Made by a program: the position numbers and the translations under genes
Shown: positions 24,922 through 39,849 of the stretch, piece by piece
Numbering within the stretch: position 1 is the first letter of the stretch
Layout: each line of letters opens with the position of its first letter
Notes under the pieces: model-generated
The model's input: only the letters and a program-made list of their open reading frames with translations
Databases searched by the model: none
What the model was told of the DNA's origin: nothing
Origin: Myxococcales bacterium
GTDB lineage: Bacteria > Myxococcota > Myxococcia > Myxococcales > Myxococcaceae
Assembly (NCBI GenBank): GCA_020846875.1
Contig: JADLDB010000059.1
Span: forward strand, 124,001-188,000
DNA length: 64,000 nt
Direction: 5' to 3'

Positions 24922-24953
24922 TCCTCGAATCGCCCGAGGTGGGATGCAGTGTG

Positions 24954-25027
24954 TGGCCAGGGTCGGACTCGAACCGACTACCTGCGGATTATGAGACCGC
25001 CGCTCTAACCAGCTGAGCTACCTGGCC
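24954..25027 (-). tRNA. tRNA-Met (anticodon CAT)
   Basis: The minus strand folds into a cloverleaf: acceptor GGCCAGG/CCTGGCC with discriminator A, D-arm GCTC-AGCTGGTTA-GAGC, anticodon loop CTCATAA, and T-arm GTCGG-TTCGAGT-CCGAC. The 3' CCA is not encoded. It lacks the C1-A72 mismatch of the initiator, so it is elongator Met or, less likely, the lysidine-modified tRNA-Ile2. The last pair of the anticodon stem (31-39) is a T-T mismatch. Confidence 0.92.
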
Positions 25028-25131
25028 GATGTGCGCGGGGCGTGTACACGGAATGCCCCGCGACCCGCAAGGGGCGAGTTTGCACGCCGACGGGAGCGGC
25101 CTTACACTTCTGACCAACAATAGAAAACGTC

Positions 25132-25231
25132 TCCTGCTCAAGGCACAACCGGGGAAACCCGGCGTCGCAAAGCCATCGGGACCTCACGTCTTCGTCGTCA
25201 CGAGAAGGCACGGTCGGCTGGGCCGCCAGGA
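25132..25231 (+). ncRNA. GEMM-I cyclic-di-GMP riboswitch
   Basis: The core features of the class I GEMM aptamer are present in order. A closing helix TCCTG (25132-25136) pairs with CAGGA (25227-25231). AAGGCACAA is followed by a P1 hairpin CCGGG-GAAA-CCCGG (25149-25162) with the GAAA tetraloop that docks in this family. Then comes the near-invariant GCAAAGCCA (25167-25175), GGGACCT, a variable hairpin and the 3' conserved part AAGGCACGGTCGGCTGGGCCGCC read in pieces. The G before GCAC fits a cyclic-di-GMP rather than a cGAMP ligand, though this needs alignment. It lies in the leader of the surface-protein gene at 25316 and has no U-tract after it, so control of translation is more likely than attenuation. 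Confidence 0.85.
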
Positions 25232-25315
25232 CAAGAGCTGGGCGCTGCTGAAGGGGGCGCCTGCCAGGGAGACCCAAACTGACGCTGGTCCGTTCGACAG
25301 CGGCTAGGAGGGAAG

Positions 25316-27130
25316 ATGGTCTCCACGGTGACGGCGTTCCTCGCGCTCTCGCTCTCGACGGTGCCGATCCCCAGCGGGAAGATCACCAACACGCCGATCT
25401 CGATCGATCTCTCCGACGGTGATCAATACGATCCACACGTCGACGGCGACCTCGCGGCGTACTCCCACGCCGACATCTCAGGGCGGCAGGAGATCCGCTA
25501 CTACCGCTTCGGGGCCGGGACTCCCTTCTCGGCTATCCCGAACGGCGGCGGCGCCGACTACCTCTCGGACATCGACCGAGGCCGGATCGCCTTCACCCGC
25601 ACCGGTTCCGGCAATCCGCTGGTCCTGATCTTCGACACCACGCTGCCCAACCCCCAGCCCCAGGTCGTGAACGAGAAGCCCGCGATGAACCGGGCCGGGA
25701 CGGCGCTCGGCGATCAGATCGTCGCCTACGGCGACTTCACGCTGGCCTCTGAGGCCGGGACGGCAGAGATGGTCGCTTACGATCTCTCCACCGGCGCTGA
25801 AGCCCGGCTCTCGAACGATCTGCTCAACGACACCAACCCGGCCGTTTCGCCCGGAGGAGACGTGGTGGTGTGGGAGAAGTGCGTCTCCTTCATCAACTGC
25901 GAGATCTACCAGGCGGTGAAAACGGGGACGGCGTGGGTCGTCTCGGTGGTCAGCGCCCCTTTGGCGTCCGGCAGCTCGATCAACCCTGACACCAACGGCG
26001 GCATCGTCGTGTACCACTCGGATCGCGGCGCGCCGACGGGGTATGACATCTACGTGCGGCCGGTGGCCGGTGGCCCGGAGGAGGTGCTGGAGATCGGCGG
26101 CCGGCAGACCAACCCCAGCGTGCGCGGCTCGGTGATCGCCTTCGAGTCGGGCATTCCAGCGGACATCTACCTGTACGAGCGGACCACCAACCGGCTGTTC
26201 CAGGTGACCGAGGGACCGGGCAACGAGACGCTCAACGACGTCACCCTGCTGCCGTCCGGCCAGGTGCGGCTCGTCTGGACCACCGATGATGGGGCGGACG
26301 GCTACAACAACGTCTATGGGGCGACCTTCTCCTTGCCCCCGCCGGTGGACACCTGCCAGCCGCGGGCCGCGACGCTCCAGGCCTCGCGGGAATACTGCCC
26401 GTCGCGGTGGAACAACGCCGACGTCTCCTTCGCCACGCCGTTCACCTTCGCGCTGCCGGCCGAGATCCCGGTGACGGCCGGGAACGCCGGCAACCACTGG
26501 GCCGAGCTGACCCTGCACACCACCTCGGGCTGCGAGACGAAGTGCAAGTACCGTGGCGGCTCCAACTACTCCCACCCCCAGAGCCAGGCGGAGCGCGCCA
26601 AGGGTGCCCGCTACGAGTTCGAGTTCTGCACCGGTCAGGGACAGGGCCTGGCCGCCGGCTCCCTCGTCCAGGTCGATCGCGTCGAGCTCCAGGTGGTCAA
26701 CGGCGACAGTTGGCAGGGCACCACGAGCGTGGAGCTGACGCTGGCGGGCGTGTGCGGGCCTCCGCCGCCTCCCATCTGTGGTGACGACGACGACGACGGC
26801 TGTGGCGGGGGAAGCCATGGCCACCATGGGCATGGGCACCACGGGCACGGGCACCAGGGCGGCGGCTCCCACGGCGGCCACGGCCATCAGGGTGGCGGCC
26901 ACCACGGCGGCGGCCACGGGCATGGGCGGTCCAAGTCCAGCGGCGACGACGAGGTCGGCGCGGTTGCCCAGGCCCTCGATCCCGAGCCTGTGCCCGCTAC
27001 GGGCTGCAGCTCCACCTCGCCGGGCTTCGCCTGGTCGGCGCTCTTCGCCGCGCTGGCCTTCTTCTTCCTTCGCCGATCCACGCCGATCCGGCTCGCGCAG
27101 ACGCAGGAGCGACGTAGACTGCCGCGCTGA
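25316..27130 (+). CDS. Secreted beta-propeller-like protein with His/Gly-rich tail and MYXO-CTERM
   Basis: This 604-residue protein has a signal-like N-terminus (TVTAFLALSLSTVPIPSG). A TolB/WD40-type beta-propeller follows at residues 25-340, with repeated Y-D-P-H/N-P-x-V blades (QYDPHVDGDLAAYSH, DTNPAVSPGGDVVVW, QTNPSVRGSVIAFES). A cysteine-containing domain (350-480), a DDDDDGCGG turn and about 40 residues of almost only His, Gly and Ser come next. The C-terminus (GCSSTSPGFAWSALFAALAF, then FFLRR) matches a MYXO-CTERM sorting tail, implying surface exposure. AGGAGGG (25306-25312) precedes the ATG. It is the first gene behind the GEMM riboswitch. Confidence 0.85.
   Translation: MVSTVTAFLALSLSTVPIPSGKITNTPISIDLSDGDQYDPHVDGDLAAYSHADISGRQEIRYYRFGAGTPFSAIPNGGGADYLSDIDRGRIAFTRTGSGNPLVLIFDTTLPNPQPQVVNEKPAMNRAGTALGDQIVAYGDFTLASEAGTAEMVAYDLSTGAEARLSNDLLNDTNPAVSPGGDVVVWEKCVSFINCEIYQAVKTGTAWVVSVVSAPLASGSSINPDTNGGIVVYHSDRGAPTGYDIYVRPVAGGPEEVLEIGGRQTNPSVRGSVIAFESGIPADIYLYERTTNRLFQVTEGPGNETLNDVTLLPSGQVRLVWTTDDGADGYNNVYGATFSLPPPVDTCQPRAATLQASREYCPSRWNNADVSFATPFTFALPAEIPVTAGNAGNHWAELTLHTTSGCETKCKYRGGSNYSHPQSQAERAKGARYEFEFCTGQGQGLAAGSLVQVDRVELQVVNGDSWQGTTSVELTLAGVCGPPPPPICGDDDDDGCGGGSHGHHGHGHHGHGHQGGGSHGGHGHQGGGHHGGGHGHGRSKSSGDDEVGAVAQALDPEPVPATGCSSTSPGFAWSALFAALAFFFLRRSTPIRLAQTQERRRLPR
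26813..26932 (+). repeat. His/Gly-rich low-complexity coding stretch
   Basis: About 40 codons consist almost entirely of cac/cat, ggc/ggg and agc/tcc, giving HGH, HHG and GGSH runs. Such stretches can bind Zn, Ni or Cu. The repeat is degenerate rather than exact. Confidence 0.85.
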
Positions 27131-28969
27131 ATGCGGCTCGGCCACTGGGGAGCGGTCGCTGGGGTGTTCGCCTGCACGGCGTGGTGTGCGACGGCGCGCG
27201 CCGAATTCTTCACTCCCCTGGAGCCGGTTCCTCCTGACGGTTTTGAGATCCGCTCGTCGGCTCCCGTCACCGCGCAGGGCGCGTCGATCTCTCCGCTGGG
27301 GCCCCAGAGCTTCCGCGTCGTCCCCGAGCCGGGCGCCCGGCAGGTGGTGCTCAGCGCCGGCGCCGAGCGGCGCACCCTGAACGTCGGTCCACCGGCAACC
27401 ACCGTCTCCGCGTCCGTCACCCCGGTGGCGCCCGTGAAGGGACGCGATGCCTTCGCGGAGCTGGAGATCGTCGTTGGCGACGCCGCGGGATCGGCTCCGC
27501 CCGTCCTGCGCGCCAACGTCGGCACGCTTGGCCCCGTCGAGCGCCTGGGGCCGGGCAGGTACAAGGCGCGCTACGCGCTGCCGCCCACGCGCTACCCGGA
27601 GGTGGCGGTGATCGTCGCCTTCTCCGCCTGGCCCCACCCCCAGTCCATCCAAGGGGCGATCGGCGTTTTGCGCGTGCCCCTGGCCACCGCCGTCGAGGTA
27701 CCAGGGCGCACGGAGCCGGGCGCCCAGATGCGGCTCACCATCGCGGGCACCACCTTCGGGCCGGTGACGGCCGGATCCGATGGCTCCTTCCGGCTCCCGG
27801 TGGTGGTGCCCCCCGGCTACGGCAGCGTGGTGGGCGAGACGCGGGATCGCGTGGGCAACCGCCGCAAGTCCACCATCGATCTGCGCCTGCCTCCGACCGA
27901 TCAGCTCGCGTGCGTGGCGACGCCTACGCGCCTGCCCGCGGACGGCGCCTCGCGAGCGCGGGTGCTGTGCGCCACCTCGGATCGCTTCGGCGCCGCCGCC
28001 AGAGGAGCGCGCGTGCAGTTGACCTCCTCGCTGGGGACCCTCTCGCCGCCGAAGGAGGTGGGCCCGGGGCTCTTCGAGTGGACCTGGGTGGCGCCCAGCA
28101 AGCGTGGTGAGGGCAAGGCCCGCCTGGACGCGAAGTGGCGGCAGGGCGCCAGCGACTCGGGGGAACGCCTGGAGATCGAGCTCGGGCAGGGGCCCGTCGC
28201 CGCGCTGATTCCGCCCCCGGGGGAGGTGGCGCTCTTCGCCGGCGGGATCTGGACCGGCGATCTCGAGGCCCGCGACGCGCTCGATCGGCCTGTGAGGGGC
28301 GTCCAGGCCTCGGCTTCGGCGTCGGTGGGCACGCTGCGCGCCTCCCCCTCCGAGGCGGATGGAAAGCTGCGGCTCACCTGGCGCCTCCCCGCGGACGCCC
28401 GGCGCGGCCAGTCCAGCGCCGAGGTGCGGGCCTTCGGGCCGACGAGTGATGAGCCAGCGCGGCTGCTGGCCTGGGCGGAGGGAGGCCGCACCTTCGCCGC
28501 CGTCACGGATCTTGCCGGCCTACCGGTTGGCCGGCAGCGGCTGCTCCTCGACGCCCAGCCTTTCACCACGGGGGAGGACGGCACGGTGGAGCTCCCGCTG
28601 CGCGATGGCGAGCACGTCCTGCGCCACGCGGACTGGGCCGGGCTGCAGCACCGGCTGGTGGTGCAGGGCGGGGCGCTCATCTACCCGACGGCGGAGCGCC
28701 CCCCGCGAGTGACGCTGAAGCTCCCGGCGCTGGTAGCCCCGCCCGTGCCGATCAACGTGCGGCTCGAGCGCGAGGCCGGCGGGGTGCGGTGGTGGCTCGA
28801 GTCGGCCGACGGCGCCACCGTGCCGGGCCGCGAGGTGCAGCTCTCGGTGAACGGTCAGGTGTCCGCTGCCACGTCGGGACAACCCAGCCACCTGGCGGTG
28901 ACGGCGGGCAGCGTGGGGGTGGTGGACGTGGCGACGCGGGTGTCGGCGGCTGTGGAGGTGGCGCCGTGA
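27131..28969 (+). CDS. Secreted protein with Ig-like (invasin-type) domains
   Basis: This 612-residue protein has a signal peptide (GAVAGVFACTAWCATARA). The mature part is almost all beta-sandwich, with several Big_1/invasin-like repeats. The pattern ANVGTLGPVERLGPGRYKA recurs as SSLGTLSPPKEVGPGLFEW and ASVGTLRASPSEADGKLRL, the usual constraint-on-change motif of bacterial Ig-like domains. It lacks an anchor or MYXO-CTERM. It starts on the base after the preceding stop, so it belongs to the same transcript. It may bind the barrel protein encoded next. Confidence 0.8.
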   Translation: MRLGHWGAVAGVFACTAWCATARAEFFTPLEPVPPDGFEIRSSAPVTAQGASISPLGPQSFRVVPEPGARQVVLSAGAERRTLNVGPPATTVSASVTPVAPVKGRDAFAELEIVVGDAAGSAPPVLRANVGTLGPVERLGPGRYKARYALPPTRYPEVAVIVAFSAWPHPQSIQGAIGVLRVPLATAVEVPGRTEPGAQMRLTIAGTTFGPVTAGSDGSFRLPVVVPPGYGSVVGETRDRVGNRRKSTIDLRLPPTDQLACVATPTRLPADGASRARVLCATSDRFGAAARGARVQLTSSLGTLSPPKEVGPGLFEWTWVAPSKRGEGKARLDAKWRQGASDSGERLEIELGQGPVAALIPPPGEVALFAGGIWTGDLEARDALDRPVRGVQASASASVGTLRASPSEADGKLRLTWRLPADARRGQSSAEVRAFGPTSDEPARLLAWAEGGRTFAAVTDLAGLPVGRQRLLLDAQPFTTGEDGTVELPLRDGEHVLRHADWAGLQHRLVVQGGALIYPTAERPPRVTLKLPALVAPPVPINVRLEREAGGVRWWLESADGATVPGREVQLSVNGQVSAATSGQPSHLAVTAGSVGVVDVATRVSAAVEVAP

Positions 28970-28982
28970 CGGGGGAGGCCCG

Positions 28983-31900
28983 TTGACGCACGCCCTGCTG
29001 GTGGCGGCTTGGGTGGCGGGGCAGGCCCCTTCCGTGTCCTTCATGGACGACGGGGCGATCGTCGGCCGGGTGTGCGTCGATCGCGACGGGGATGGGCGCT
29101 GCGCGGTGGACGAGCCCGGCTTGGCTGCGGCGCGGGTGGTGCTGGACACGGGGCTGACCGCGATCACCGACGCGCAGGGCCGTTACCACCTGGCCTCGGT
29201 GCCCGGCCGCGCGCTTGCGGAGGATGGGGTTGGTGCCGCGCGGATGCTCCCCGGCAGGCACCGCGCGAAGGTCGACCGCCGCTGGTTGATGGAGGGAGCC
29301 ACCGCCGTCCCGGACGGCGCCACCTTCGAACTCCCGATGGGCGGGCTGGTCGTGGTGGACTTCGCGGTGCGCCCGCCAGCCGCCGCCGCCCGCCAGCCTC
29401 GGTTGAGTCCCTCCGGCGGGCCGCCGCTCCTGGCGAAGGGGCGCGTCCAGTACGACGTGGCGCTGGAGCAGGTGGACGGCCAGACGCTGCGGGTGCAGGG
29501 CCTTGCGCTCGAAGGCGGAAAGGCCACGGTGATCCTCCCGGAGGGCGAGAACCAGGTGCCGGTGAGCTCCTCGTCGCCAGGCAGCCTGGAGCTCTTCGTC
29601 CACCCGGTGGACGTGGTGGCGCGCCCCAGCAGCACGCTGATCATCCCCCGGCCGCTCCGCGCGGTGGGCTCCGTCACGGTGGACGCCCAGGGCCTGTTGC
29701 GCGCCCACCTGCCTGTGGGCTCCACCCTGGAGGTGGAAGGCCACGCCGTCCAACTGGACGCGGGCGGGCAGGGGACAGTGCAGACGAAGGAGGCTTCCTT
29801 CCCTGTGACGATCCGCCTGCCGGGGGTCGACGCCTGGATGGAGTCGCTTGAGCGCCCGGGGCCCCGGGGCGTCTTCGCGGTTGGCCTGTTGGACGTGGAG
29901 GCGGCGTACAACCTCCACAACTCCCAGCTTCAGGTGTTCGGGCGGGGCGCCGGCGCGATCCGCGCCCGGCTGCTGGGTTTCGATCTCTCCGGCGAATTGG
30001 ACTTCCGCGATCAGGACGTGGAGGCGATCTCCAGCGGCAACGCCAGCGCGCTCGCCGTGGCGCGCCGCCAGGACGTCTTCGAGCGCCAGCTCGATCCACT
30101 CCGAGTCCCGCTCGCCTGGGCCGACGACAGCGCCACGGTGGCCACCAACCCGGGTGAGGGGCGCTTCCGCGTCGAGGTGGCGCGCGAGGGGTGGGGCAAG
30201 GCCGGCTACGGCAGCGCACGCCTCTTCTTCTCCGACTCGGAGGTGGGGCGCGCGCACCGCGCGGTGCAGGGCGGGTACCTCGCCGTCAAGTCACCTACGG
30301 ACGGCTCGCCCTTCGGGGTGGAGCTGCGCGGCGTGGCTGCGCCCTCGCAGGTTGATCCGACGGTGGGGTGGGCACGGCGGCCGGCGCACGAGCGCTTCGA
30401 GAGCACCGGCGGCAGCCTCTTCTTCCTCGCTCACCCGGGCACGAACGGGCAGGCGGTGGTGCAGGGCAGCGAGGTAGTGCGCGTGGAGTGGCGTGATCCC
30501 GTCACCGGCGTGCCGCTGAAGGATCTGCACCTCACTCGCAACCTCGACTATTCGATCGACACGCTGTCGGGCCGCATCCTGTTGACCCGGCCTTTGTCCT
30601 TCCTCGCGCAGGACTCGCTGCTGGCGACCGATCCGCTGTCGGCCGCGGCCTCGCCGGTGCTGGTGGTGGATTACGAGTACCTGGATACCGCGGCTGAGGG
30701 CGCCACTCTGGGCGGCGAGGTGCGGCTGCGCGGCGGCCCGGTGAAGCTGTCCGCCGGGGGCATGAAGGACGGCGCGTACGAGCTGCTGCGCGCCCGCGCG
30801 GAGGCCACCCTGGGCCCGGTGTGGCTCACCCTGGAGGGCGCCCGCAGCCGCGGAGTGGTGGCCGGCCTGGGCGCCTCCACCGACGGCGGCCTCACCATGC
30901 TGTCCCGCGCGCCGCCGACCATCTCTCCCGAGGGCTTCGCCACCACGGTGCGCGCGCGCAGCAAGGGCCTTTTCGGGCGGGGCTCCTGGGACGCGGCGTG
31001 GCGGTGGCGGCAGCAGGGCTACGAGGACATCGGCGGGGTGGGCGCGCTCAACACCGTCTCACTGCGCGGGGAGCAGCCGGTGGGTCCGCTGATCGTCACC
31101 GTGCAGGCCAGCTTGTTCGACGCACCGGATCCGAGGGATCCCTTCTCGGGCGCGCGGGTGCGGGGAAGGAACATTGGCGGCGGGGTCGGCTTCGAGCGGG
31201 AGCGCTGGGGCGTACGCCTCGAGGCGAGAGATCTCGAGCACACCCGCGAGGAGCCGATGCTGGCCACGCCGGGCACTCCCGCCGGCGCCTTCTCCCTCGG
31301 CCTCGCGGGGCGCTTGCGCGTCACCGACTGGCTGCAGCTACGCGCCGGCTACCGGCAACGCCTGGCGCCGCACGGGGTGGATCTCAACGACACGTTCGCT
31401 TCTGCGGGAGTGGACCTGAGCCCCACGCCCGGACTGGAGCTCTCGCTGAAGGGTGGCTGGGGTCCGGCGGTAGGCCCGCTGGTGTGGGGATCAGTGTCGT
31501 ACACGCGCGGCCGCGAGACCTGGTACGGCATTCAGGCGATGGACGTAGATGCCCCCTCCACCGGGGATCGGCGCCTGGTGGCCGGCGTGCGCGAGCAGCT
31601 CGATCCCTCCACCGCCGTCTTCGTGGAGGACGTGAGCGCCACCGACGTGGATGGGCTGCGCCTTTCGCGCGCGGTGGGAGTGAGCCAGCGGCTGGGCGAC
31701 GCCTTCACCGTCACCGGGCGCTACGAGCACGGCGCGCGCAGCACGGTGGGCGCGGCTCCTGACGTCTCGCGCGACGCCGGCGGGCTAACGCTGGCCTGGG
31801 ACACCGAGCGGGTGAAGCTGTTCGGGCGAGGAGAGGTGCGCGCGGAGACGGGCCCGGTGCCCTTGACGCAGTGGGTGGCGACCGGCGGCGGCGAGGTGAA

Positions 31901-32423
31901 GCTGCACCGGGACGTGTCGGGATCGGCCCGGGTGATCTTCTCCCACGCCACGCGCGCAGGAAGGCTGGAGTCGCGGCTCCTCGACGCCTCGGCCTCGCTG
32001 GCCTGGCGCTTCTCTCTGGGCGCGCTGATCGCCCGCTACAGTTGGCGGCAGGAGCTCCGAGGCGGGATCGAGAACCGGGTCCACCTCGTCTCGCTGCTGC
32101 CCACCATGAAGGTGAGCGAGCGCTTCACCCTGGGCGCAGGTGGGCACCTGGCGATCGCGCCGGAGCAGACGGTGATCTCCGCCTCCATCCGGCCGGCGGT
32201 GCGGATCGTCGCCGGCCTCGAGGTGGCGGCCGAGGCGGTGGTGCGCTCGAAGGCGCCGGACGCGGGCAGCCTCTCGTCGCTGCGCGGTGAGGTGGGCTAC
32301 CGTTTCGATCAACGCTTCTACGTGGGGGCCGGGTACACGGCGTTCGGCTTCTCGGGGACGGGGATGCAGGGGACGCCCTCGGGGGCCGATCGGATCTACC
32401 TGCGGACGGAGGTGGCGTACTGA
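28983..32423 (+). CDS. Large outer-membrane barrel protein with SdrD/CNA-B-like N-domain
   Basis: This 1146-residue protein begins at a TTG, with a weak signal-like segment (ALLVAAWVAGQAPS). A CNA-B/SdrD-like domain follows (GRVCVDRDGDGRCAVDEPGL, then ITDAQGRYHLASVPG), then beta-sandwich regions. From about residue 560 it has a long series of amphipathic strands of outer-membrane-barrel type, ending in an aromatic residue (IYLRTEVAY). It fits an outer-membrane export or surface-display component for the neighbouring Ig-like and DUF11-like proteins. Its stop overlaps the next ATG (TGATG). Confidence 0.78.
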   Translation: MTHALLVAAWVAGQAPSVSFMDDGAIVGRVCVDRDGDGRCAVDEPGLAAARVVLDTGLTAITDAQGRYHLASVPGRALAEDGVGAARMLPGRHRAKVDRRWLMEGATAVPDGATFELPMGGLVVVDFAVRPPAAAARQPRLSPSGGPPLLAKGRVQYDVALEQVDGQTLRVQGLALEGGKATVILPEGENQVPVSSSSPGSLELFVHPVDVVARPSSTLIIPRPLRAVGSVTVDAQGLLRAHLPVGSTLEVEGHAVQLDAGGQGTVQTKEASFPVTIRLPGVDAWMESLERPGPRGVFAVGLLDVEAAYNLHNSQLQVFGRGAGAIRARLLGFDLSGELDFRDQDVEAISSGNASALAVARRQDVFERQLDPLRVPLAWADDSATVATNPGEGRFRVEVAREGWGKAGYGSARLFFSDSEVGRAHRAVQGGYLAVKSPTDGSPFGVELRGVAAPSQVDPTVGWARRPAHERFESTGGSLFFLAHPGTNGQAVVQGSEVVRVEWRDPVTGVPLKDLHLTRNLDYSIDTLSGRILLTRPLSFLAQDSLLATDPLSAAASPVLVVDYEYLDTAAEGATLGGEVRLRGGPVKLSAGGMKDGAYELLRARAEATLGPVWLTLEGARSRGVVAGLGASTDGGLTMLSRAPPTISPEGFATTVRARSKGLFGRGSWDAAWRWRQQGYEDIGGVGALNTVSLRGEQPVGPLIVTVQASLFDAPDPRDPFSGARVRGRNIGGGVGFERERWGVRLEARDLEHTREEPMLATPGTPAGAFSLGLAGRLRVTDWLQLRAGYRQRLAPHGVDLNDTFASAGVDLSPTPGLELSLKGGWGPAVGPLVWGSVSYTRGRETWYGIQAMDVDAPSTGDRRLVAGVREQLDPSTAVFVEDVSATDVDGLRLSRAVGVSQRLGDAFTVTGRYEHGARSTVGAAPDVSRDAGGLTLAWDTERVKLFGRGEVRAETGPVPLTQWVATGGGEVKLHRDVSGSARVIFSHATRAGRLESRLLDASASLAWRFSLGALIARYSWRQELRGGIENRVHLVSLLPTMKVSERFTLGAGGHLAIAPEQTVISASIRPAVRIVAGLEVAAEAVVRSKAPDAGSLSSLRGEVGYRFDQRFYVGAGYTAFGFSGTGMQGTPSGADRIYLRTEVAY

Positions 32424-35284
32424 TGCGGCGGCTCGTGCTGCTCAGCGTGCTGGTGTCTCGGCTGGCGCTCGCCGGGTGGGCCAGTCTGCCTGCGATCAGC
32501 GGCGCCCCGCAGGATCTCGTGGTGGTGGACGGGGGAGTGGTGGTCGCCGCGTCCTTGAGTGAAGCGGTCGCCCGGGGCACCGACGGCGGGTTGATCGCGC
32601 AGCTCACCGGCTCCTTCGTCGGCGCGGGCCTCTTCTCCGGCAACTGCCTGGCGGCGCTCTCGTCTGCCACGGCCTCCGTCTCGATCAGCGCGGGCTGCGG
32701 TACGGGCGGGATGGGCGCCGGAACGCCGCGTCGCTTTCGCGTCTTCTCCAACGGGCTCTCTGTCGCCCGGGTGTCTCAGGGGATGGACGGCCTGCTGGTA
32801 GCGCCCCTGCCGACCGGCACCTTCCTTTCACCGACGGGGCTGGTCCCCTGGTCCGCCTTGATCCCTCGCAGCCTGCAGGCCGCGACCATCAACGGGGCGG
32901 ACGTGGCGATCCTGAACGAGACGGCCGCCCGGCTCCAGTTGAGTGTCGACGGCGGGGCGCCCTTCCCGATCCCGCTTCAAGCCCCTGCGCGCGACGCGGT
33001 GCCGTTCGCCCGGCTCGGTGCTGGGGCGGCCGTCGTCGTCTCGAGCGCAGGCGCGGTGGGCCTGGTCCCGGTGCTCGGGCAGGCGGACGTGGCCGTGATC
33101 CTCCCGATGGGCTTCACGGCCCAGTTCGTCGCGATGAGCACCGATGGAGCGGGCGACGCCGGCACCGGCTATGGGCTCATCACGAGCACCACCGGCGCGG
33201 TGCTGTCCCCCGTGCCGGATCCCTCTGAGCCGGGCTCGGTGTGGATCCTCCGAAGCGGCGCTCCGCCCATGACCGACCGCGTCCACTGCTTCGACGCCCG
33301 CTGGTGTGCCGGCTTTGGAGCGGGGGGTGTCATCCACCTCCTGTCGAACGACTTCGCTCCGGTCCTCGATCTCGACGCGGGCGCGCTGCTCCCTGGGGTG
33401 CCGTCGGCGGTGACGGCGAGCGCGTCGGATCAGGACGGGGATCCGGTGTTCATCACCTGGTCTAGCGCGACGGCGCAGATCACACCGGGCGCCGATCCGG
33501 AAGGGCGAGCCGCGACGCTCCTCGTCCCCGCCGGCCAGGAGTGCACCAGCGCGACCGTCCCGTTGACCTTGACCATCTCTGACGGGCTGGGCGAGCACGA
33601 TCGCACCGTCGTGGCGATGGTGCCCCTGGCCTCGACGGCGGGCGCTTCGATCTTGCCGCTTGCGCCGGTGGTCGATCCGGGTGATCCGCCGGTGGCCTTC
33701 ACCGCGGGGAGCGACGGGGGCTGCGCGGGCGCCACCTTCATGTGGTCCACCTCGGACGGCCAGAGCGGCGCCGGGCCCACCTTCAACTGGAACGTCCCCG
33801 CGACGGCCTGCAGCGCGGACGGCGGCACGGCGCAGGTGTCGGTGGCGTGGCGGGATCCTGCCGGGCACCAGGCCAACGCCAGCACCACCGTCACCGTGAC
33901 GCCCTGGGGCCGGCCCAACGCCCCCCAGTTCCCCGCGCCCGCGGTCCAAAGCGCCGGCACCACCCAGGTGTGGAGTCCGCTCGACGGAGGCCACGCCTGT
34001 AGCACCACGAGCACCTTCCCGGGCCTGGAGCTGGACTGGATGCTCTCCGTCCCGCCCGCGGGCGTCACGCTCACCCCCGTAGACGGCGGGTTGGAGGTGG
34101 CCTCCTCCGACGTCTGCACGCGCGCCACCCTCACCGCTACGGCCCAGTTCCGCGTCGCCGGCGCTTCCGCCGCCCAGGCCTCCGGGCCCGGCACCCTCAC
34201 CGTCGATCTCGTCCCCAGCCCACCGGCGCTCGGCCCGAGCACGCCCTTCGCCATCAACCTCGAGGTGGACGCCGGCGTGGCGATGGGGTTCTTCACCGTG
34301 GACGCAGGGTGCCGCGATCTCGCGCTCCTCTCCGCGGAGGTGTCGCTGGGCGTGCCGGACGCGTCGGTGGTGGCGCAGCAGACCTTCCCGACTGTCCCCG
34401 GGCCCTGGTCCTTGCCGATCCCCGCCTCTTGCGGCGCGGGCCAGTTCGAGCTCGTCGCGCGGCTCCTCGATGACGGCGGCGTCACCGGGGCGGAGGTGCG
34501 CGACCTCGTCCCCGCCGACACGCTGCCGGTGCTGCCGGGCGTGGCGGCTCCCTCGACGCTGCCGGTGACGTGTGGCGTGGGCGGCCGCGGCCAGCTCACG
34601 GTTGCGTCCAACCCGAACGGCTGCGCGACGCCGCTGGCCACCTGGCGGCAGACGGGCGGCCCGGCCCTCACCCAGTCCACGCTCGCGGGTACCACCGTCG
34701 AGGTGCAGACCGTCTCCACCGGCTTCGACGTGGTGGGCGAGCGCCTCTCCTTCGACGTGGAGGTGAGCGACGGCGCCGGCGCCTCGGCCAGCGGACCGCA
34801 CGAGGTGCTGCTCACCGCCGCGCCCTTCGTGAAGATCTCCGAGAGCCTGTCGCCCTTCCCGGCGCGTGAGGAGGAGCCGGGGGTGGTGACGGTGCGGCTG
34901 GAGAACACCTCCACCTGCGACGTCTCGGGGCTCACCGTCCGGGAGGTGCTGACCCACCTCGTCCCGGTGATCGACTCGGTGCGCGCGTCCGGGCCGCTGG
35001 AGGCGGAGTGGGGGGCCGGGACGCTGACGCTGCGGGGGGTGTCGCTGGCCGCGGGCGCGACGGAGACGATCACCTTCAAGGTGCGCCGCCAGCTCCTCTC
35101 CCGGCCAGAGGCCGTGGGCAGCGTGTTGCTCCGCGATCAGCTGGTCTCCATCCGCCCCGAAGTCCCGCCGACCTCCACCGGGTGTGGCTGCCACGGCGGA
35201 GGCGAGTCGCTGCTGGGCCTCTCGGTGCTGCTGCTCCTCCTGAGGCGCCGGGGGGGCCTGCGCGGCTCCCGCCGTCTCGTGTAG
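32423..35284 (+). CDS. Large secreted DUF11-like protein with MYXO-CTERM
   Basis: This 953-residue protein has a signal peptide (RRLVLLSVLVSRLALAGW). The middle has beta-sandwich, PKD/Ig-like repeats with paired cysteines (ACSADGGTAQVSV, HACSTTSTFPG). Near residue 810 there is a DUF11-type domain (VVTVRLENTSTCDVSGLTV). The tail GCGCHGGGESLLGLSVLLLL with RRR is a clear MYXO-CTERM signal, predicted to be sorted and cleaved at the cell surface. It is translationally coupled to the outer-membrane barrel gene. Confidence 0.85.
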   Translation: MRRLVLLSVLVSRLALAGWASLPAISGAPQDLVVVDGGVVVAASLSEAVARGTDGGLIAQLTGSFVGAGLFSGNCLAALSSATASVSISAGCGTGGMGAGTPRRFRVFSNGLSVARVSQGMDGLLVAPLPTGTFLSPTGLVPWSALIPRSLQAATINGADVAILNETAARLQLSVDGGAPFPIPLQAPARDAVPFARLGAGAAVVVSSAGAVGLVPVLGQADVAVILPMGFTAQFVAMSTDGAGDAGTGYGLITSTTGAVLSPVPDPSEPGSVWILRSGAPPMTDRVHCFDARWCAGFGAGGVIHLLSNDFAPVLDLDAGALLPGVPSAVTASASDQDGDPVFITWSSATAQITPGADPEGRAATLLVPAGQECTSATVPLTLTISDGLGEHDRTVVAMVPLASTAGASILPLAPVVDPGDPPVAFTAGSDGGCAGATFMWSTSDGQSGAGPTFNWNVPATACSADGGTAQVSVAWRDPAGHQANASTTVTVTPWGRPNAPQFPAPAVQSAGTTQVWSPLDGGHACSTTSTFPGLELDWMLSVPPAGVTLTPVDGGLEVASSDVCTRATLTATAQFRVAGASAAQASGPGTLTVDLVPSPPALGPSTPFAINLEVDAGVAMGFFTVDAGCRDLALLSAEVSLGVPDASVVAQQTFPTVPGPWSLPIPASCGAGQFELVARLLDDGGVTGAEVRDLVPADTLPVLPGVAAPSTLPVTCGVGGRGQLTVASNPNGCATPLATWRQTGGPALTQSTLAGTTVEVQTVSTGFDVVGERLSFDVEVSDGAGASASGPHEVLLTAAPFVKISESLSPFPAREEEPGVVTVRLENTSTCDVSGLTVREVLTHLVPVIDSVRASGPLEAEWGAGTLTLRGVSLAAGATETITFKVRRQLLSRPEAVGSVLLRDQLVSIRPEVPPTSTGCGCHGGGESLLGLSVLLLLLRRRGGLRGSRRLV

Positions 35285-35314: not shown

Positions 35315-38244
<2,930 letters not shown>

Positions 38245-38248
<4 letters not shown>

Positions 38249-38658: not shown

Positions 38659-39849
38659 GTGGCGCGACTCGGCGAGCTGCTCATCCAGGAGAAGCTGGTG
38701 ACTCCCGAGCAGATCGAGGAGGCGCTGGAGACGCAGGTCGTCCACGGCGGGCGGCTGGGCACCAACCTGGTCGAGCTGGGCTTCCTGCAGGAGAACGACC
38801 TGGCGCGCGTGCTGGGCCGGCAGCACAACCTGCCGTACGCCGCGGGCGAGATGGTGCCGGATCCCCAGGCGCTGGGGCTGGTCGATCGCCAGTTCTACGA
38901 CGACCAGGACGTGCTGCCGATGCGCGTCGACGCCACGCGGCTCACGGTGGCGGTGCTGCACCCCAACCAGGTCAAGCCGCTGGAGATGCTGGGCTTCAAG
39001 GCCGGCAAGCGCGTGGTGTCGGTGGTGATCCCCGAGTTCCGGATGAACCAACTGCTGCGCAGGTACACCAAGGCCTTCCGGCCGATGCGGCCCATCGACA
39101 TGAACACGCTGCGGCCGTCGAAGCGGCGCGGCGACGATCAGCCCAGGCCCTCCAGCGGCGACGAGCTGATCAACGAGGACGACTTCGCGAAGATCTACGC
39201 CAGCGCGGTGGCCGGCGGCTCGGAGGAGGGCGAGATCCTCGAGGGCGTGGTGGTGGAAGACGAGGCCCCGGTGGTGGCGGGCGCGGTGCTGGAAGGGGAG
39301 CCGCTGCCTTCACCGGCCTCTTCGGCACCCTCCGCCCCGGAGAGCGAGCCCGGCGCGCTCAGCTTCCCCGAGGCGCAGAAGCTCTTGCAGACCAGCGCCG
39401 GTCGCGAGGACATCGCCCGCACGGTGCTGCGCTTCGCGCGCAGCAAGTTCAAGCGCGCGCTGCTCCTCAACGTGCGCGGCGACCTGGTGACCGGCTGGAC
39501 CGGCCTGGGGGAAGGCGTCTCGAAGCGCGCGGTGCAGCACATCGGCGTCTCCTTGCGCGAGGCGAACACGCTCAAGCTGGTGCGCGACCTGCGCAGCCAC
39601 TTCGTGGGGCCGATGAAGCGCACGCCGGGCATGGCGGTCTTCTACAAGCTGCTCGGCGGCGGGTACCCGACCACCGCGGTGCTGCTGCCGCTGCTGGTGC
39701 GGGGCAAGCCGGTGCACCTCCTGTACCTGGACCAGGGGCCGGATCAGCTCACCCCGCCGGACGTGGGGGAGTTGCTGATCGTCAGCCAGGGCGTGTCGCG
39801 CAGCTACGAGGCGCTGATCCGCCAGCGCAAGGCCGCCGCCACGTCGTGA
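38659..39849 (+). CDS. MshEN-domain protein, predicted cyclic-di-GMP receptor
   Basis: This 396-residue protein begins with the MshEN/GspE-N fold. Two copies of the cyclic-di-GMP motif RLGxxLVxxGxLxxxxLxxxLxxQ lie at residues 3-26 and 32-55, separated by the usual five residues (VVHGG). The second copy is perfect; the first has Lys for the middle Gly. After an acidic linker (about residues 155-235) comes a second globular domain of unknown identity (SFPEAQKLLQTSAGREDIA onwards). There are no Walker motifs, so it is not a secretion ATPase. It starts with GTG 9 bases after the VOC gene and ends the block that begins at the riboswitch. Confidence 0.8.
   Translation: MARLGELLIQEKLVTPEQIEEALETQVVHGGRLGTNLVELGFLQENDLARVLGRQHNLPYAAGEMVPDPQALGLVDRQFYDDQDVLPMRVDATRLTVAVLHPNQVKPLEMLGFKAGKRVVSVVIPEFRMNQLLRRYTKAFRPMRPIDMNTLRPSKRRGDDQPRPSSGDELINEDDFAKIYASAVAGGSEEGEILEGVVVEDEAPVVAGAVLEGEPLPSPASSAPSAPESEPGALSFPEAQKLLQTSAGREDIARTVLRFARSKFKRALLLNVRGDLVTGWTGLGEGVSKRAVQHIGVSLREANTLKLVRDLRSHFVGPMKRTPGMAVFYKLLGGGYPTTAVLLPLLVRGKPVHLLYLDQGPDQLTPPDVGELLIVSQGVSRSYEALIRQRKAAATS

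Follow-up and report, generated by a model that had tools for sequence, protein, structure and literature searches.

Riboswitches of the c-di-GMP-I class (GEMM-I; Rfam family RF01051) are typified by Vc2 of Vibrio cholerae, in whose numbering G20, A47 and C92 are the ligand-contact sites; in solved structures of the family, the G20 equivalent touches one of the two guanines of c-di-GMP. The known cGAMP riboswitches (GEMM-Ib, Geobacter) carry an A at the G20 position. Among GEMM riboswitches that act on transcription, pilM is an ON switch and Cd1 an OFF switch; in Cd1 the aptamer competes with an anti-structure (PMC9262584). Here we compare with these systems a leader found in a 64,000-nucleotide stretch of DNA from a Myxococcales bacterium (hereafter the window, numbered from its first letter).

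The aptamer and its class

A scan of the whole window against Rfam returned three matches above cut-off, namely two tRNAs and RF01051. The RF01051 match (25132-25230, plus strand) spans the full length of the model (positions 1-87) and scores 39.2 bits (cut-off 35); its E-value was 3.7e-4 when the 64-kb window was scanned with every family and 9.6e-6 in a search of the 7.06-Mb genome, where no second copy was found. A model built from relatives yielded 54.7 bits for the window aptamer, again as the single match in window and genome, a score that is not independent because the window copy is among the 23 training sequences. The first-pass annotation had called a class I aptamer from sequence landmarks and had proposed the Rfam covariance model as a check: a letter-by-letter comparison found every landmark at its given position, and the match to the model is significant. 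The features of the leader are as follows, P1, the core and the Shine-Dalgarno sequence being read directly from the letters.

25080-25108, plus strand: promoter, TTGCAC (25080-25085), 17 bases, TACACT (25103-25108), assigned by homology
25132-25231, plus strand: c-di-GMP-I (GEMM-I) aptamer, matched by RF01051 and the family model
25132-25136/25227-25231, plus strand: helix P1, UCCUG/CAGGA
25142, plus strand: equivalent of G20 (Vc2), first G of GGCA, model position 11 in the RF01051 alignment
25149-25162, plus strand: hairpin P1b, CCGGG-GAAA-CCCGG, five pairs with GAAA as a GNRA-type tetraloop
25167-25175, plus strand: core GCAAAGCCA
25169, plus strand: equivalent of A47 (Vc2), first A of GCAAAG in the RF01051 alignment
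25306-25311, plus strand: Shine-Dalgarno sequence AGGAGG
25316-27130, plus strand: gene 1, a 604-residue secreted TolB-like beta-propeller with a MYXO-CTERM-like tail, from the open reading frame and family matches

The aptamer lies in the 5' leader, on the same strand as the gene that follows, and ends at 25231, 84 bases before the ATG at 25316. It resembles Vc2 and RF01051 in its full-length covariance match, its GNRA-capped hairpin, its GCAAAG core and the G20/A47/C92 set, which reads G, A and C in the RF01051 alignment and is kept in relatives; the G at 25142 is invariant in the 23 aligned relatives. Two departures from the RF01051 consensus were observed, both common to many relatives. 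Beside C92 the consensus A-U pair has become an A facing C, in the window as in Myxococcus xanthus. In the internal loop on the 3' side, which bears on the tetraloop receptor of the neighbouring helix, GG stands in place of AG; sequence gives no measure of docking. The system further differs from Vc2 in that a myxobacterial operon would be regulated, through a platform based on a proposed anti-aptamer strand.

Judged by these features, the leader RNA is the carrier of a genuine class I c-di-GMP riboswitch aptamer, for which the ordinary c-di-GMP class is the best filing and c-di-GMP the most likely ligand. The genome encodes 20 GGDEF domains, which makes a supply of c-di-GMP plausible. In a lax search RF03167 (c-di-GMP-I-GGC), a family of similar sequence, came out ahead of RF01051, yet its 41.1 bits lie far under its cut-off of 59; it was rejected, the window having A at 25169 where RF03167 has G (model GCGAAG against GCAAAG here). 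A long-noncoding-RNA match of 18.8 bits in the lax search, far under its own cut-off, was attributed to chance.

Conservation and linkage in the Myxococcaceae

RF01051 matched 23 of the 96 genomes of the family, and in all 23 an ortholog of the window protein at 25316, 33-45% identical to it, lies directly downstream at one locus. A protein search returned 61 genomes with 60 genuine orthologs, one hit being left out because it matched a C-terminal piece only. A separate scan of genome contigs with the single window protein found nothing; with an alignment as query it gave 23 loci in named organisms. The upstream DNA of the 37 orthologs with no detected aptamer was then taken for a lax scan, which placed a class I aptamer at the same position and strand in 26 of them, so that 49 of the 60 orthologs are preceded by one (23 detected by RF01051 and 26 by the lax scan). 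The 26 copies, that of M. xanthus (L043; the same leader also in L087) included, had been missed by the RF01051 genome scan; seven of them, none used in model building, scored 84.6-103.9 bits with the family model. Two-sided changes occur at eight of the 22 pairs of the aptamer helices. Beyond the family, one genome of another family in the same order (L068) has both the aptamer and the ortholog, at 32% identity. The linkage of the aptamer to the downstream gene is the strongest new evidence obtained here and, with the aptamer itself and its conservation, forms the demonstrated part of the explanation. The original assignment, a GEMM-I aptamer preceding the gene of a surface protein, is borne out by the covariance model and by a riboswitch-gene pairing conserved across the family.

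The aptamer is decayed or gone in 11 of the 60 orthologs, mostly in two genera, one of which retains remnant-like sequence without the GCAAAG core. At L061, in the Archangium group, the promoter is joined to the platform and the aptamer is missing. Leaders resembling a decayed aptamer without the GCAAAG core lie upstream of the ortholog at L056, L057, L058 and L064. One genome (G044; L002, L024, L026 and L027) holds five GEMM-I matches, four of them before other genes, the other positive genomes having one each; in family f3, genus g31, of the same order, three GEMM-I aptamers (L065, L066 and L067) are not before a gene 1 ortholog.

Of the 49 leaders compared, the window included, 42 have a -35/-10 pair, which in most cases takes the form TTGACC-18-TASACT and stands 15-19 bases upstream of the aptamer. 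The window copy, from which we infer the transcription start, agrees at seven of 12 consensus positions and was missed by a stricter consensus scan.

The development of M. xanthus requires c-di-GMP, which increases about tenfold in this phase and for which few receptors have been described (PMC7156744, PMC4877007). The literature on c-di-GMP in this organism, as far as a partial search in which absence is not proof covered it, lists protein receptors and names no riboswitch; the M. xanthus copy scores under the Rfam cut-off, which would explain the lack of annotation. The kind of riboswitch is already known and, as far as the literature searched shows, what is new is that the linkage spans the family and that M. 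xanthus has the element, together with the platform proposed here. If functional, the riboswitch would give the model organism M. xanthus one direct RNA target of c-di-GMP, and would implicate an uncharacterised surface operon in the c-di-GMP response.

A candidate anti-aptamer strand and the direction of switching

Duplex predictions and constrained folds point to a strand in the platform, denoted X, that could compete for the 5' side of the aptamer.

25129-25144, plus strand: aptamer 5' strand GUCUCCUGCUCAAGGC, target of the anti-aptamer strand
25259-25274, plus strand: proposed anti-aptamer strand X, GCCUGCCAGGGAGACC, with a homologous strand conserved in relatives
25318-25324, plus strand: GGUCUCC at the start of the reading frame (codons 1-3), its GUCUCC being a second copy of 25129-25134

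In the window, positions 25267-25273 of X are complementary to 25129-25135 (GUCUCCU/GGGAGAC, seven pairs) and GCCU at 25259-25262 to AGGC at 25141-25144 (four pairs). When freed, 25268-25274 (GGAGACC) is a perfect complement, over seven pairs, of GGUCUCC at 25318-25324. A duplex search against the aptamer 5' strand showed that an X-like complementary strand recurs in the platforms of relatives, with up to ∼17 pairs; in the window group, for example, CUCCUGAUCAGGGCAC pairs with GUGCCCUGAUCGG at L014, and GUCUCC-GC-UCAGGGCAC with GUGCCCUGAGC-GGAGAC at L021. In the alignment of this group 82.6% of cells are paired, against at most 47.2% when the strands are slid by 1-3 columns, and most of its X duplexes have energies of -25 to -33 kcal/mol. 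Two positions show two-sided changes (column 12/188, CG to UA; column 9/191, UA to GC), and at L004 one base has apparently been lost on each side of the pairing. Swapped leaders reached the own-leader pairing in 237 of 20000 permutations within the window group, in 985 of 20000 within the other group and in 0 of 20000 over all leaders, the last figure being inflated by relatedness.

Covariation in X is thin (two pairs): depending on the measure, shuffled alignments equalled it in 52-179 of 500 cases, a result short of significance because only eight sequences are available, and we therefore describe X as a conserved complementarity with thin covariation. The window copy is weaker than those of its relatives (∼11 pairs; z of -0.2 against shuffled platforms; own platform fifth of eight), and X may partly reflect chance in G+C-rich sequence. 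Taken together, comparison and computed energies support X as a candidate strand.

In the mechanism that we propose, X (25259-25274) would pair without ligand with the aptamer 5' strand, comprising the 5' arm of P1 and the G20 segment; since X then occupies this strand, no aptamer would form and the start site would be open (ON). With c-di-GMP, the aptamer would close P1 and release X, and in the window group released X would pair with the gene start (in the window itself, GGAGACC/GGUCUCC) and bury the Shine-Dalgarno sequence and the AUG, an OFF response by translation. No intrinsic terminator was found in the window leader or its group, and in this proposed translational block the window group differs from the transcriptional Cd1 and pilM. 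In the Myxococcus/Archangium branch the X homologue lies inside terminator-like hairpins followed by U-rich tails (L022, UUUUUGUUUU; L019; L025; and M. xanthus L043, with the imperfect tail UUCAUUUC), so that OFF would there be by transcription; this proposal resembles the aptamer/anti-structure competition of Cd1.

In nearest-neighbour energies, which ignore ligand, tertiary contacts and co-transcriptional folding, opening the region from the Shine-Dalgarno sequence to the AUG costs 12.0 kcal/mol in the window with X free and 7.7-9.9 with X paired; the corresponding values are 17-18 and 8-9 for L014, 14-15 and 10.6 for L016, and 11-17 and 7 for L020. The OFF sign holds for L021 only when the downstream stretch is shortest and for L003 at a single length out of three; for L004 and L010 it is reversed by 1-3 kcal/mol; opening energies thus give no consistent OFF bias for L003, L004 and L010. 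It also counts against the proposal that the window leader, folded with no constraint, has its start site buried in the minimum-energy structure. Both outputs, translational and transcriptional, predict OFF at high ligand, and the riboswitch more likely turns its genes OFF than ON. Ligand, direction and mechanism are what we infer, and our preferred reading, a GEMM-I riboswitch of a conserved Myxococcaceae surface operon that works as an X-based OFF switch with c-di-GMP as its most likely ligand, is one we consider probable, if by no great measure. Its extension to an OFF switch throughout the family, M. xanthus included, in which the branches would have retained one anti-aptamer strand that strips off the ligand-contact segment but exchanged its output, blocking translation in the window branch and terminating transcription in the Myxococcus branch, is more tentative and somewhat doubtful. 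At L009 only 23 bases separate aptamer and ATG, and the Shine-Dalgarno sequence lies inside a small hairpin; with so short a platform, its output presumably differs from that of its relatives.

The first-pass annotation had suggested the opposite direction, in which CTCCT (25131-25135) would pair without ligand with AGGAG of the Shine-Dalgarno sequence (25306-25310), and ligand, by closing P1, would free the ribosome site. The five-pair complementarity is real and mutually exclusive with P1. The pairing is not kept in relatives, however: leaders pair with their own Shine-Dalgarno sequence no better than swapped ones, which equalled the pairing in 10757 of 20000 permutations for the window group and in 18663 of 20000 for the other, and a complement to a purine-rich Shine-Dalgarno sequence is expected by chance in a strand that bears CUCC. 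Forced in the window, it is the least stable of the tested states (-90.2 kcal/mol); the anti-aptamer fold reaches -94.9 and the aptamer-like one -98.3 kcal/mol. We therefore rejected it as the main mechanism, and an ON switch of this design seems unlikely. We think it equally improbable that the aptamer of the window species is decaying, with platform function lost and no switching left, even though no platform of its group is weaker than that of the window, the start site is predicted to be hidden in the free fold of the leader, and 11 orthologs have a decayed or missing aptamer. The core letters and P1 are all intact, the score exceeds the curated cut-off, and neutral decay would not spare core and P1 over a divergence to ∼45% protein identity.

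A last alternative concerns the ligand: 3',3'-cGAMP, or a set of cyclic dinucleotides, might be recognised instead of c-di-GMP alone. The A opposite C in window and M. xanthus is a consensus departure near the site. The window has G at 25142 in place of the A of the known cGAMP riboswitches and keeps A47 and C92, and by this G20 rule the GEMM-Ib class is disfavoured; GEMM-Ib of Geobacter has the same fold and comes from a deltaproteobacterial lineage in the older sense. G20 is, however, reported to influence selectivity without being a strict filter (PMC9262584), and Hypr GGDEF enzymes that make cGAMP have been reported from myxobacteria (PMC6456294). On balance we assign a cGAMP or mixed response little probability.

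The downstream operon and neighboring genes

Gene 1 is followed closely by three conserved neighbors, with gaps of 0 bases (genes 1-2) and 13 bases (genes 2-3) and a one-base overlap (genes 3-4).

27131-28969, plus strand: gene 2, Ig-like (Invasin_D3 and Big_1, just under cut-off), directly after gene 1
28983-32423, plus strand: gene 3, 1146 residues, conserved neighbor with 38-54% identity in relatives
32423-35284, plus strand: gene 4, 953 residues, conserved neighbor

Gene 1 gave partial matches to TIGR04275 and TIGR02800 and matched TolB chains in the PDB. Its tail consists of Gly-Cys-Ser, a membrane helix and Arg-Arg, is MYXO-CTERM-like and is present in relatives too. Of the initial description as a MYXO-CTERM protein 84 bases 3' of the aptamer, the spacing to the ATG is exact; the tail is a weak match, TIGR03382 scoring 17.0 bits on the C-terminal piece and 14.7 on the whole protein (cut-off 15.85). 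Gene 2 is syntenic in relatives at 42-51% identity, and gene 3 had no family match in the domain search. At L070 and L071, genes 2, 3 and 4 are 51%, 53-54% and 33-35% identical to those of the window, and the synteny of the operon also extends to the Myxococcus loci L072 and L073. The operon may have a role at the surface or envelope.

The next gene after gene 4 (35315-38248) encodes a 977-residue protein in which MopE-type metal-binding motifs (PF11617) recur. At 38659-39849, 3.4 kb after gene 4, lies the gene of an MshEN-domain protein (PF05157), MshEN being among the domain types known to act as c-di-GMP receptors; it is syntenic in relatives, with 55-70% identity. On the other side, a tRNA-Met gene (24953-25027, minus strand) stands head to head with the riboswitch promoter, and a tRNA is also found upstream in L029.
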